Under the pieces are notes generated by a model that ran no database searches, was not told the origin of the DNA, and saw only the letters and a program-made list of their open reading frames with translations. This document shows positions 60,236-63,260 of a stretch of DNA of 64,000 nucleotides, in pieces. The position numbers and the translations under genes are program-made. This stretch comes from Antricoccus suffuscus. GTDB taxonomy: Bacteria; Actinomycetota; Actinomycetes; Mycobacteriales; Antricoccaceae. The number at the start of each line of letters is the position of its first letter. The first letter of the stretch is position 1. The stretch covers positions 1-64,000 of the forward strand of contig NZ_PVUE01000014.1 of assembly GCF_003003235.1 (NCBI RefSeq), written 5' to 3'.

Positions 60236-61096
60236 ATGGCGCAGGATGCCGTTACGCCACCGAGCCTCGTCGCTGACTGCGGAAGCTGTTTTGGCCTGTG
60301 CTGTGTTGCACTGCGACTGGATGAGTCCGCCGACTTCCCCGTCGACAAGCCGGCCGGCGAACCGTGCCACAACTTGCAAGAGGATTTTGGCTGCGCTATT
60401 CATGCGCGCCTGCGCCCCACGGGATGGAAGGGCTGCACGGTCTTCGACTGTTTCGGCGCCGGGCAGCAGGTCTCGCAGGTGACGTTCGCCGGTGTTTCCT
60501 GGCGCGATGCTCCCGAGATCGAACACTCGATGTACGCCGCGCTACCGGTCATGCGTCAACTGCACGAGATGCTCTTCTATCTACACGACGCGCGCAGAGT
60601 CTCGCCCGACGGTGCGTTGGCGGCGGCGTACGACGAGACGGTCGCGCACACGGCCGATCCGCCCGAACGACTACTCGCGCTCGACGTCACGGCGCTACGT
60701 GCTCGGGTCTCGCCCCTGCTGCGCAGTGCGAGCGCGGCGTATCGACGTACGGTCCGGCGGCGCCTCTCCAACGTCGTACCGCGCAAGGTCCATCCTGGTG
60801 CAGATCTGATGGCCGCCGACCTCCGCGGCATGGACCTGCGCGCTGCCGATCTACGTAACGCCTACCTCATTGGCGCCGACCTCCGCAGGAGTGATCTGCG
60901 CCACGTGGACCTCCTCGGCGCGGACCTGCGCGACGCCGATCTACGCGGGTCAGATCTCCGCGGGGCGATATTTTTGACCCAGCCTCAGCTCAACGCAGCG
61001 GCAGGCGACGCCAGCACCGAGATTTCGCCGGCACTGGTACGACCCTCGCATTGGATTGAACGCGGCGAATTCGCACCGGGTTCGGCGGAAATCTAG
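60236..61096 (+). CDS. Fusion of a Cys-rich YkgJ-like domain and pentapeptide repeats
   Basis: A 286-residue protein. The N-terminal 75 residues hold eight cysteines, with a C-x2-C-x3-CC core (C15, C18, C22, C23) plus C44, C53, C67 and C72, as in YkgJ/FliB-like putative zinc- or iron-chelating domains. Residues about 194-247 form eleven pentapeptide repeats (ADLRG, ADLRR, SDLRG and so on), which fold as a right-handed helix that in other proteins mimics DNA. A middle helical part links them. Target unknown. Confidence 0.82.
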   Translation: MAQDAVTPPSLVADCGSCFGLCCVALRLDESADFPVDKPAGEPCHNLQEDFGCAIHARLRPTGWKGCTVFDCFGAGQQVSQVTFAGVSWRDAPEIEHSMYAALPVMRQLHEMLFYLHDARRVSPDGALAAAYDETVAHTADPPERLLALDVTALRARVSPLLRSASAAYRRTVRRRLSNVVPRKVHPGADLMAADLRGMDLRAADLRNAYLIGADLRRSDLRHVDLLGADLRDADLRGSDLRGAIFLTQPQLNAAAGDASTEISPALVRPSHWIERGEFAPGSAEI

Positions 61097-61169: not shown

Positions 61170-61198
61170 TTACATCGGCCATGGTCAACCGGTATACT
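61170..61198 (+). promoter_or_regulatory. Putative promoter of the LuxR-type gene
   Basis: TTACAT at 61170 and TATACT at 61193 are 17 bases apart and would start RNA near 61205, which fits a coding start at 61244 rather than at the ATG 61181. The word GGTATAC covers the -10 and is repeated at 61139, suggesting a regulator-binding repeat. Not supported by experiment. Confidence 0.4.
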
Positions 61199-61243
61199 CG
61201 CAGGTTGAATACACTATTGCTCCTCGTCGATGGGTGGTGTCCG

Positions 61244-62116
61244 ATGAGCCCTGTTGCGTCCGCGAGTTCGGCACGCTCGCAGTCGATGTCGGATCTTCAT
61301 CGTTGGGCTCTCGAGAGCGCTCGCTATCGCTCGGCTAACTCCGACGCCCACGCGGCAGTACGTGAGCTGAGCCGTCACCGTGAGCGTGCGACCCGTCAAC
61401 AGGACGAAGTTCTCGGCGGACGGGTGGCCCTTGATCGTCTGCTTGTCGACGACGAGCCCGATCATCGCCTGCGCGTGCAGAAGGTCGTCGACCTGCCGCT
61501 ATTACAGAACAAGCTTGTTCAGATCGCGCAACGCACCCGTCACGAACTGCTCAGTCTGCACTCCGGCGACGCGCCGTCCGAGGAAGCGTTTGTATCGGCG
61601 CAACGAACCGATCGTGAGCTCGTCGATCGCGGTGTCCGGCTCCGGATCGTCTATCCGCTCGAGTTCGCGCAGCTGCCCCGGGTCCGCGACTACACCGAGA
61701 CCATGCAAAACCATGGCGCCGAGTTTCAGTTCGCCGATGCGGTGCCCTACCGGATTATCGTATCCGATGCGGCGCGCGCGGTCGTGCCGATCGTTCGCGG
61801 CCACCGCAGTGAAGGCGCCATCATTACCGGCGAACCGGCACTCGTCAGTGGTTTGCGTCACCTCGCCCGCGGCATCTTTCGCAGCGGCCGCAACCTGCGC
61901 GATATCGATCTCGGCGCGGCCAGTGGCCGTCCAACCGAGCTTGAGCTCGAGGTCATTAGGGCGATGAGTCTAGGGTTGGCCGACGATGCCGCTGCGCGGC
62001 GACTGGCGGTCAGCGAACGCACTTTTCGCCGCTACGTCGCCCAAGTCTTCGAGCGCCTTGGCGCGACGAGCCGATTCCAGGCCGGCGTGCGAGCCGTGGA
62101 GCGCGGCTGGCTCTAG
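61244..62116 (+). CDS. LuxR-type transcriptional regulator with TrmB/PLD-like sensor domain
   Basis: A 290-residue regulator. The middle (about 80-225) resembles sensor domains of TrmB-like regulators (LPLLQNKLVQIAQRTRHELL; RELVDRGVRLRIVYPLEF). The C-terminal LuxR helix-turn-helix spans about 230-285 (LELEVIRAMSLGLADDAAAR, then VSERTFRRYVAQVFERLG). The ATG at 61244 has GGTGG upstream. It is followed after 201 bases by a small exported-peptide gene, so it may control or sense that peptide; this is inference. Confidence 0.82.
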   Translation: MSPVASASSARSQSMSDLHRWALESARYRSANSDAHAAVRELSRHRERATRQQDEVLGGRVALDRLLVDDEPDHRLRVQKVVDLPLLQNKLVQIAQRTRHELLSLHSGDAPSEEAFVSAQRTDRELVDRGVRLRIVYPLEFAQLPRVRDYTETMQNHGAEFQFADAVPYRIIVSDAARAVVPIVRGHRSEGAIITGEPALVSGLRHLARGIFRSGRNLRDIDLGAASGRPTELELEVIRAMSLGLADDAAARRLAVSERTFRRYVAQVFERLGATSRFQAGVRAVERGWL

Positions 62117-62164
62117 GCCTGCCTATACACGGTTTTCCGATACAAAGCAAGACTTTGATTCACA

Positions 62165-62192
62165 TTGGCCGGAATAGGACAAGTCCGGCCAA
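62165..62192. terminator. Hairpin after the LuxR-type gene
   Basis: TTGGCCGGA and TCCGGCCAA are perfect 9-bp arms with a 10-base loop. It stands 49 bases after the regulator stop and before the peptide gene. It is likely a terminator or attenuator separating the two. No strong T run follows. Confidence 0.6.
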
Positions 62193-62317
62193 GGAGATGG
62201 CACAAGGTGGTCCCGGTAGGTTTTCATAGACACACGCCGGTGAACCGCCACTCCCCCCGTAAGCGGTTGATCGTCGTGAGGACAAGCTAGAACCGTAGAC
62301 GACAAAAAGGATCAGCC

Positions 62318-62440
62318 ATGAAGCGACTCATCGCAGGAATCTTCGCGATCGCGACCGTTTTCGGAATCGGCGTCGCCGTTACGGCTCCACCAGCCCAATC
62401 GCAGAGCTCCCCCATCGCATGCGGAATTTGCTGGAAGTAG
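62318..62440 (+). CDS. 40-residue exported small peptide, cysteine-containing
   Basis: A complete short gene with ATG at 62318 behind AAAGGATCAGCC and a stop at 62440. The first 23 residues form a signal peptide: MKR, then a hydrophobic core (LIAGIFAIATVFGIGVAVTA). Cleavage near PPAQS would leave a tail of 10-14 residues ending PIACGICWK, with a Cys-x2-Cys pair. A hairpin terminator follows 19 bases after the stop. No match to a known peptide family is recalled. The divergent-looking leader at 62243-62268 also has a hairpin (AACCGC/GCGGTT). It may be a signalling or antimicrobial peptide. Confidence 0.7.
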   Translation: MKRLIAGIFAIATVFGIGVAVTAPPAQSQSSPIACGICWK

Positions 62441-62458
62441 TTAGCTAGTCCTCACCTT

Positions 62459-62494
62459 CACAAGGACCGATCCTCTCGAGGACCGGTCCTTGTG
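62459..62494. terminator. Terminator hairpin after the peptide gene
   Basis: CACAAGGACCG and CGGTCCTTGTG are perfect 11-bp arms with a 14-base loop. It stands 19 bases past the peptide stop, supporting the view that the peptide gene is a separate transcript. It is the strongest structure in this stretch. Confidence 0.85.
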
Positions 62495-62648
62495 GCGTGT
62501 GCGGGCGTCGGCCGGCCTCGGGCGCCAGAATTTGAGGTAGTTCGACCTGCTCACGGCCAAGCTCACGGGTGTCGGCCGCGAAGTACGTAGACTCGTACGA
62601 CGAGACCTGAAACTGCGTGATTTTGCGCCGTACACAGGAGGTCGATCT

Positions 62649-63260
62649 ATTCCCACCGCAACGTCCGCTCGCCTTCGTCAGCGTCGACTGGTCGTGACAC
62701 TTTCCGTCCTCGGGCTCCTGGTCGTATTGCTATATCTGGCGTTTCGACCAGCCGCCACGGACGGGCATCGGATGTCGGCACCTTCGCTGCCTGCCCAGTT
62801 CATCAAGGCCGCAGTCGGCCCGGCGCAAGCAAGCGAACGCGAGTACGGCGTACCGACGTCTGTCGCACTGGCGCAGGCGATCTTGGAGTCCAATTGGGCG
62901 CAGTCCGAACTGACAAGAGAGGGCAACGCCTACTTCGGTATCAAGTGCGGAAAGGACAACGGGAAGTACGCAACCGGCTGCCTGAAAAAGCCGACGAGCG
63001 AATGTCAACCGGATGGCACCTGCACGAAGGTCATCGACTCCTTTCGCACTTACGCCACGGCGACGGACTCCTTCCGGGATCACGGGCTGTTCCTGGCAAG
63101 CAACGACCGCTACGCGAAGGCGTTTCTCTACTCCGCAAATCCGGACCAGTTCAGTCGCGAAATCGCGCTTGCCGGTTATGCAACGGATCCTGGGTACGCC
63201 GACAAGTTGATCGCGCTGATGACGAAGTTCAACCTTTATCAGTACAACAACCCGAAATAA
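62649..63260 (+). CDS. Membrane-anchored or secreted glucosaminidase (FlgJ-like); likely ATT start
   Basis: A peptidoglycan hydrolase of the glucosaminidase fold (SVALAQAILESNWAQSELTR and NAYFGIKCGK are the catalytic-region motifs; two later cysteines fit a disulfide, TGCLKKPTSECQPDGTC). The usual start candidate, GTG at 62694, has no ribosome site and no charged residues before the hydrophobic segment. An ATT at 62649 lies seven bases after AGGAGGT and adds TATSARLRQRRLVV, giving a normal basic N-region. So the start is most likely ATT, making 203 residues. Confidence 0.78.
   Translation: MPTATSARLRQRRLVVTLSVLGLLVVLLYLAFRPAATDGHRMSAPSLPAQFIKAAVGPAQASEREYGVPTSVALAQAILESNWAQSELTREGNAYFGIKCGKDNGKYATGCLKKPTSECQPDGTCTKVIDSFRTYATATDSFRDHGLFLASNDRYAKAFLYSANPDQFSREIALAGYATDPGYADKLIALMTKFNLYQYNNPK

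Follow-up and report, generated by a model that had tools for sequence, protein, structure and literature searches.

A small exported precursor gene with a Trp-containing tail beside a PLD/TrmB-like, LuxR-type regulator: a candidate peptide signalling pair recurrent in actinomycetes

The window, a stretch of 64,000 nucleotides from Antricoccus suffuscus, carries a regulator gene followed by a very small gene on the same strand. The small gene has 40 codons (62318–62440, forward strand) and its translation, MKRLIAGIFAIATVFGIGVAVTAPPAQSQSSPIACGICWK, reads as an exported precursor peptide. A ribosome-binding site, AAAAGGA (62305–62311, forward strand), ends 6 nt before the ATG and aligns with AAGGA in all three relatives. 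The N-terminus is basic, then hydrophobic, and signal-peptide-like by composition. The C-terminal tail is SSPIACGICWK, with the CGICWK codons at 62420–62437; frame and tail are kept in two other genera. These observations bear out the initial annotation, which had described a 40-codon gene with ribosome site, signal peptide and CGICWK tail. Its claim of an own terminator held for a strong terminator-like stem of 16 pairs 3′ of the gene (62458–62495, forward strand; z −4.6); this stem is without a T-run, and the terminator scan listed none after the peptide gene. The DNA of the gene is single-copy in its own genome, and the precursor contains its motif unit once.

Pfam had no match to the window peptide, and all its NCBIfam matches were below cut-off. 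Identity with the BLB8/JUQZ-1 ‘ocin’ was rejected (E 0.006, 16.8 bits with a cut-off of 40; residues 1–32, the signal-peptide part), as was identity with NprX (E 0.12; residues 1–17, also signal-peptide part). Two PHROGs of unknown function matched weakly (E 0.03 and 0.11). Nine peptides of relatives gave nothing above cut-off in NCBIfam. The initial annotation knew no described family with such a tail, and the peptides tried fell into no curated family. A conserved structure of the leader RNA was also rejected, as folding of the three family leaders was not clearly better than that of shuffles (z 0.21, −0.78 and −1.57). The three family peptides all have C-rich stem-loops with CCCCC loops in their leaders (window 62233–62270, L048 and L049), with a folding energy that is not significant. 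The next gene after the peptide (62667–63260, forward strand) encodes an exported glucosaminidase near the model of the sporangiospore-maturation hydrolase GsmA (232.5 bits, cut-off 240).

The regulator gene (61244–62116, forward strand; alternative start at 61181, the first ATG) ends 201 nt upstream of the peptide gene. Its C-terminus is a LuxR-type HTH (PF00196, 26 bits with a cut-off of 23.5, E 7e-6). Pfam matches to this protein comprised HTH families only; a TrmB match was absent, including the N-terminal TrmB-type winged HTH PF01978. Several relatives have an N-terminal TrmB-type HTH, and PF01978 is above cut-off in L118 and L062. The AlphaFold model, built on 19 relatives, has a mean pLDDT of 82.8 and a pTM of 0.62, with residues 1–70 of low confidence. 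Its layout is an N-terminal helix in the low-confidence part, a PLD-like domain (about residues 78–214) and the HTH. One Foldseek neighbour was the archaeal TrmBL2 (5bpd, E 1e-8, TM-score only about 0.4); others were small PLD nucleases (1byr, 6ehi) and the sugar-binding domain of TrmB (2f5t). In this model, the predicted middle domain is of the PLD-like kind that serves as ligand domain in the TrmB family. Residues invariant in a 19-row alignment of regulators include R129, G158 and D175; R170 is nearly so. P168-x-R170-x4-D175 resembles a lost HxKx4D motif of PLD enzymes. The initial description as a TrmB-sensor/LuxR regulator is thus upheld by the HTH and the TrmB/PLD-like fold, and not by a Pfam match to TrmB. 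The regulator was also said to lie outside the Rgg/RRNPP type, in agreement with the PLD-like plus HTH layout and with a Pfam search that gave no TPR domain at E values up to 1. The sensor part had no Pfam match to an autoinducer-binding domain; an NCBIfam match to autoinducer-binding regulators covered residues 198–288, the HTH end, far below cut-off. The gene before the regulator (60236–61096, forward strand) encodes a protein with terminal pentapeptide-like repeats (ADLR..DLR..; label by eye).

The family comparison covered five genomes of three genera, including the window's own (G000). With the window peptide as sole query, the search of relatives that had been proposed with the initial annotation found like peptides, frame intact, in two of the four other family genomes (G004, E 1.2e-6; G001, E 0.027). 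Each belongs to another genus and adjoins, downstream, a regulator 52% identical to that of the window. The peptide ORF is more than chance because of these like peptides beside 52%-identical regulators. The two tails are CGVCWSPR and CAFCWPTNR, and strong hairpins follow both peptide genes (z −7.3 and −8.3). At E 1e-20, a regulator was missing from G002; the one in G003 is weaker, and no peptide was found beside it. Nucleotide differences at codon positions one to three were mostly in third positions for L068/L072 (4, 9, 24) and L048/L049 (11, 9, 23). No third-position excess was seen for L062/L063 (9, 3, 9) and L142/L157 (27, 23, 25); both DLPWT copies are intact. Judged by these comparisons, the 40-codon gene is a real, conserved coding gene for a predicted exported precursor with a constant Trp-containing C-terminal tail (here ACGICWK). 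A profile of the three peptides gave only weak matches beyond the family in 397 genomes of the order (the family three match by construction), and only L043 among 27 fetched profile-matched loci has an adjoining regulator. The window's genome encodes two paralogous regulators, L078 (G000:C1:188732-189541) and L079 (G000:C18:1067-1843). No recognisable peptide was found near them; they might respond to the window's own peptide.

Between the two genes lies the inverted repeat TTGGCCGGAATAGGACAAGTCCGGCCAA (62165–62192, −153; z −4.0), unique in the window. It is the hairpin initially noted after the regulator, and represents a candidate operator or an end-of-transcript hairpin of the regulator gene. 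Related half-sites occur at the same place in compact palindromes of G004 (TGACCGGTTCCGGTCA, −174) and G001 (GGTGGCCGGAACCGGTCACC, −155). The window repeat has a longer spacer than these palindromes and lies outside their pattern TGRCCGGWWCCGGTCA. Across the five genomes, its only occurrences without mismatch are these two promoters, one in G001 and one in G004. Palindromes were found between several pairs in a scan without control. In one branch, GGACGG-N18-CCGTCC occurs six times without mismatch, spread over 5 of 70 loci (286 kb), and is absent from 400 kb of control; with one mismatch, there are 17 versus 9 in the same lengths. It lies between regulator and peptide in four loci, and the fifth, L148, is without a peptide found. 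The repeat was first seen in L131, L139 and L149, so that only L148 and L153 are independent cases.

At E 1e-20, 68 of the 298 order genomes searched have regulators of the window's kind; across the class, 183 of 394 sampled genomes have one at E 1e-30 or better. CxxCW tails beside such regulators were detected in four further families of the order: f16 (L052 LCLVCWL), f8 (L053 DCGNCW, L054 ICGGCW), f3 (L068 ACGTCW, L072 ACGSCW, L081 LCMQCW) and f12 (L101 VCGSCW). They occur once in another order (f41, L175 PCIGCW). Three f3 loci (L064, L071 and L082) have CxxC tails more than 1 kb away in which W does not directly follow. CxxC was rejected as the defining feature, as a scan for C..C only missed most relatives, which the Trp tail covers. 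Regulators of this type often adjoin an exported peptide of about 40–120 residues with a Trp-containing tail. In family f2, DWWW-like tails (L074, L076, L077, L085, L090 and L108) occur, with DGFHW and DGLHW at two other loci; f15 has DGFGW, and DDLGWQ is a further form among the relatives. The large-genome genus g102, which we take to be Streptomyces, has VIGWD, DMGWQ, DSLGWG, DMIWG, DNIWM, DDVTWG, DLPWT and TTAWE. Gene order is variable, with the peptide downstream on the same strand, divergent or convergent.

Precursors of the relatives carry two to eight repeats, in units of 5–12 residues with a Trp core. Two copies are found in L118, L123, L131, L142 and L143, three in L121, four in L145, L146 and L164, and eight copies of GTTWD in L163. 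The L163 copies encode GTT variously as GGCACCACC, GGCACCACG or GGCACTACC; codons vary, therefore the amino acids are kept and not the DNA. The recurrent feature, as read from the translated tails, is a Trp-containing tail, often repeated, of which CxxCW is one branch. The L163 peptide weakly resembles a sequence on a Natribaculum plasmid (H32, NZ_CP095398.1:198326-198568; 36%, E 5e-5), which may be a low-complexity similarity. A short-motif search of contigs yielded three Streptomyces regulators. Shorter regulator relatives lie just upstream of succinate dehydrogenase-like genes (label by eye) in the Streptomyces loci L016, L017 and L018.

As a control for the pairing, large ORFs were taken from genomes of the same sample, in 20 stretches of 20 kb each. 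A first criterion asked for 35–100 aa, a hydrophobic N-terminus with K/R, a Shine-Dalgarno-like stretch and a W after residue 25, within 900 nt. Of 139 regulators, 46 adjoin such a peptide, and of 177 control ORFs, 9 do (Fisher P 4.6e-11); the regulators were mostly chosen best-scoring first and are not a random sample. A strict criterion, which asked for a W among the six C-terminal residues or for a repeated W motif, within 1 kb, was fixed after the first peptides had been seen, and its 139 loci include those of pattern discovery. It selected 38 of 139 regulators, three of them doubtful by eye (L057, L083 and L187), versus 4 of 175 control genes, anchors that represent three ORFs (P 2.8e-11). 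The remaining 101 regulators had no peptide by this measure. Tail residues were most enriched over control for D (13.9-fold) and W (11.8-fold), with 1.4- to 7.2-fold for the others (Y 1 versus 0). The controls are generic large ORFs, so some of this excess comes from the longer gaps that flank regulators.

Plasmid-borne Streptomyces regulators served as an outside check, in which some peptides still resemble one another. They were found via the L118 regulator, and 20 were chosen from 30 records listed among 83 matching, with near-copies left out. The unchanged strict criterion gave a peptide for 10 of the 20, one of them (L236) probably spurious. Inspection of small genes by eye gave 14, with none recognisable at L230, L236, L239, L241, L247 and L249. 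Examples are L231 (6× GAGWD, 1.7 kb away), L232 (3× GIGWD), L234 (3× DGFGW), L244 (2× DPTWD) and L238 (2× DLPWT, S. clavuligerus pSCL4). Twelve of the 14 are annotated, every one as hypothetical protein. A g102 peptide with 2× DMGWQ had weak matches in 11 others of 150 genomes of the genus (E 1e-4 to 0.01). Two of these are repeat precursors, L210 (3× DPGW) and L212 (2× DAGWQ), and only these two have a family regulator in the fetched stretch; the other nine have none. On these counts, the pairing of a predicted exported Trp-tail precursor with a PLD/TrmB-LuxR regulator is recurrent across genomes.

Tail type was also mapped on the tree of the 47 paired regulators, with seven classes assigned by eye. 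They need 14 changes, compared with a mean of 30.8 for shuffled tails (none of 200 as low). Nine of the 11 CxxCW regulators cluster, with L164 in their group; the branches of L101 and L175 are long and uncertain. Taken singly, GWx and xIWx do not cluster (as few changes in 53 and 78 of 500 shuffles, respectively). Tail type thus appears to follow the regulator tree partly, which indicates co-inheritance, a property distinct from ligand specificity.

Within about 1.5 kb, the 47 paired loci have no widely shared modification, transport or immunity gene in a crude comparison, which missed the EH gene described next. An EH motif (MYLVH...LEHV..H) marks a gene of about 90 aa that was seen in none of the 20 control stretches of 20 kb. 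It adjoins 35 of the 149 regulators scanned, among them six that supplied the seeds of the EH model. Examples are L231:1633-1965, L234:1112-1402, L124:674-937 and L153:1040-1363. For the examples tried, Pfam and NCBIfam gave nothing above cut-off and no enzyme match. The gene is absent from the eleven CxxCW loci and confined to one branch; its product may be a modulator of the same peptide-regulator system. On Streptomyces plasmids, the regulators L235, L240, L244 and L249 lie beside genes for an oxygenase, a MupA-type monooxygenase or ketosynthase/acyl carrier proteins. Three of these four have a Trp-tail peptide, and the regulators are placed as if controlling biosynthetic clusters.

The link between the two genes, an inference in the initial annotation, is well supported because of the conserved pairing, the co-inheritance and the palindromes between the genes. 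From the genomic pattern, we consider it probable, with moderate confidence, that the pair is a minimal two-gene peptide signalling module in which the regulator is receptor and controller of its peptide. The precursor would leave the cell by the Sec route, and a protease would free the tail as a short signal peptide. The two to eight repeats per precursor in many relatives would resemble yeast alpha-factor precursors. Mature peptides of the CxxCW branch may carry a disulfide between their two cysteines. The peptide would re-enter the cell, probably through an oligopeptide permease. We infer ligand binding by the regulator: the re-imported peptide would bind the degenerate PLD/TrmB-like domain. 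The LuxR-type HTH would bind the palindrome between the two genes and control the peptide gene as a feedback loop, probably together with other genes. Cell-surface sensing or mere co-regulation would give the same genomic picture as cytosolic signalling.

The exported peptide may act as an antimicrobial, metal-binding or envelope effector whose expression is set by a regulator that does not sense it. Cys-x2-Cys tails are capable of metal binding or disulfide formation, peptide genes commonly adjoin their own regulator, and the intergenic palindromes are compatible with simple control. However, a constant part of a few residues and tandem repeats with a Trp core are more readily explained by short released peptides than by a single folded effector, and the crude comparison of neighbours gave no widely shared gene for immunity or transport. 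We regard an effector as rather unlikely. A new signalling or bacteriocin-like module had been proposed initially; signalling is favoured and widened to Trp tails, and a bacteriocin, without positive evidence in that crude comparison, is a less likely reading. Trp- and Cys-containing repeated cores are also typical of some RiPPs, and some pairs lie beside biosynthetic genes, among the four plasmid loci named above. The tail would then be the core of a modified peptide with Trp/Cys as modification sites, enzymes encoded elsewhere, and a natural product or modified signal as the product. This is quite improbable, given 47 paired loci with no common modification enzyme within about 1.5 kb and an EH gene that is limited to one branch and has no enzyme match.

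Most regulators are without a detectable adjoining peptide, short ORFs are common in GC-rich DNA, and the genomes of the order outside the family provided no strong peptide match. A chance or lineage-specific exported ORF that lies beside the regulator without a functional link would agree with these facts. Yet frame, length and CxxCW tail are conserved in three genera and the pairing recurs far above control, and we give such a coincidence hardly any credence.

If the pairs are peptide signals and their receptors, the genome sequence may be enough to synthesise a ligand for the regulators in 183 of 394 class genomes. A control of biosynthetic clusters or development would become directly testable; actinomycetes are the main source of antibiotics. 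We see an even chance that actinomycetes hold a large undescribed class of Trp pheromones, often derived from tandem repeats and sensed by a degenerate PLD-like receptor domain fused to a LuxR-type HTH. Streptomyces would have several channels per genome, with tail and receptor changing together, and CxxCW would be one dialect. The open-access literature searched held nothing on this regulator-peptide pairing; work could exist in subscription journals and preprints, which were outside the search. To our knowledge, no such widespread system is known in actinomycetes.

RRNPP systems have a two-gene layout with the propeptide gene adjacent to the receptor gene (PMC10075063). The window shares this layout of a small exported propeptide gene adjacent to a regulator gene. 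It differs in an actinobacterial regulator with a PLD/TrmB-like domain and a LuxR-type HTH, in which no TPR was found, and in a Trp tail that is often repeated. The RRNPP members Rap, Rgg, NprR, PlcR and PrgX are from Firmicutes, and their propeptides carry the signal at the C-terminus; re-import of the peptide and its binding by the receptor, a mark of these systems, would also apply to the window's pair. With LuxR/LuxI systems and LuxR solos, the window regulator has the C-terminal LuxR-type HTH (PF00196) in common; unlike LuxR/LuxI, it has no match to an autoinducer-binding domain and its partner is a peptide gene. TrmB binds sugars. Archaeal TrmB and TrmBL2 share the PLD-like fold of the middle domain and, in several relatives, the N-terminal TrmB-type HTH; the window protein has no match to the latter and possesses the extra C-terminal LuxR-type HTH. 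Yeast alpha-factor precursors contain several copies of one short unit. Exported precursors of relatives such as L163 and L231 do likewise, whereas they are bacterial, far smaller and of another motif, and the window copy has a single unit. Peptide pheromones sensed by cytosolic regulators are well known in Firmicutes; the comparison suggests that the present system also joins a peptide pheromone to a cytosolic regulator, but differs in the types of receptor and precursor.
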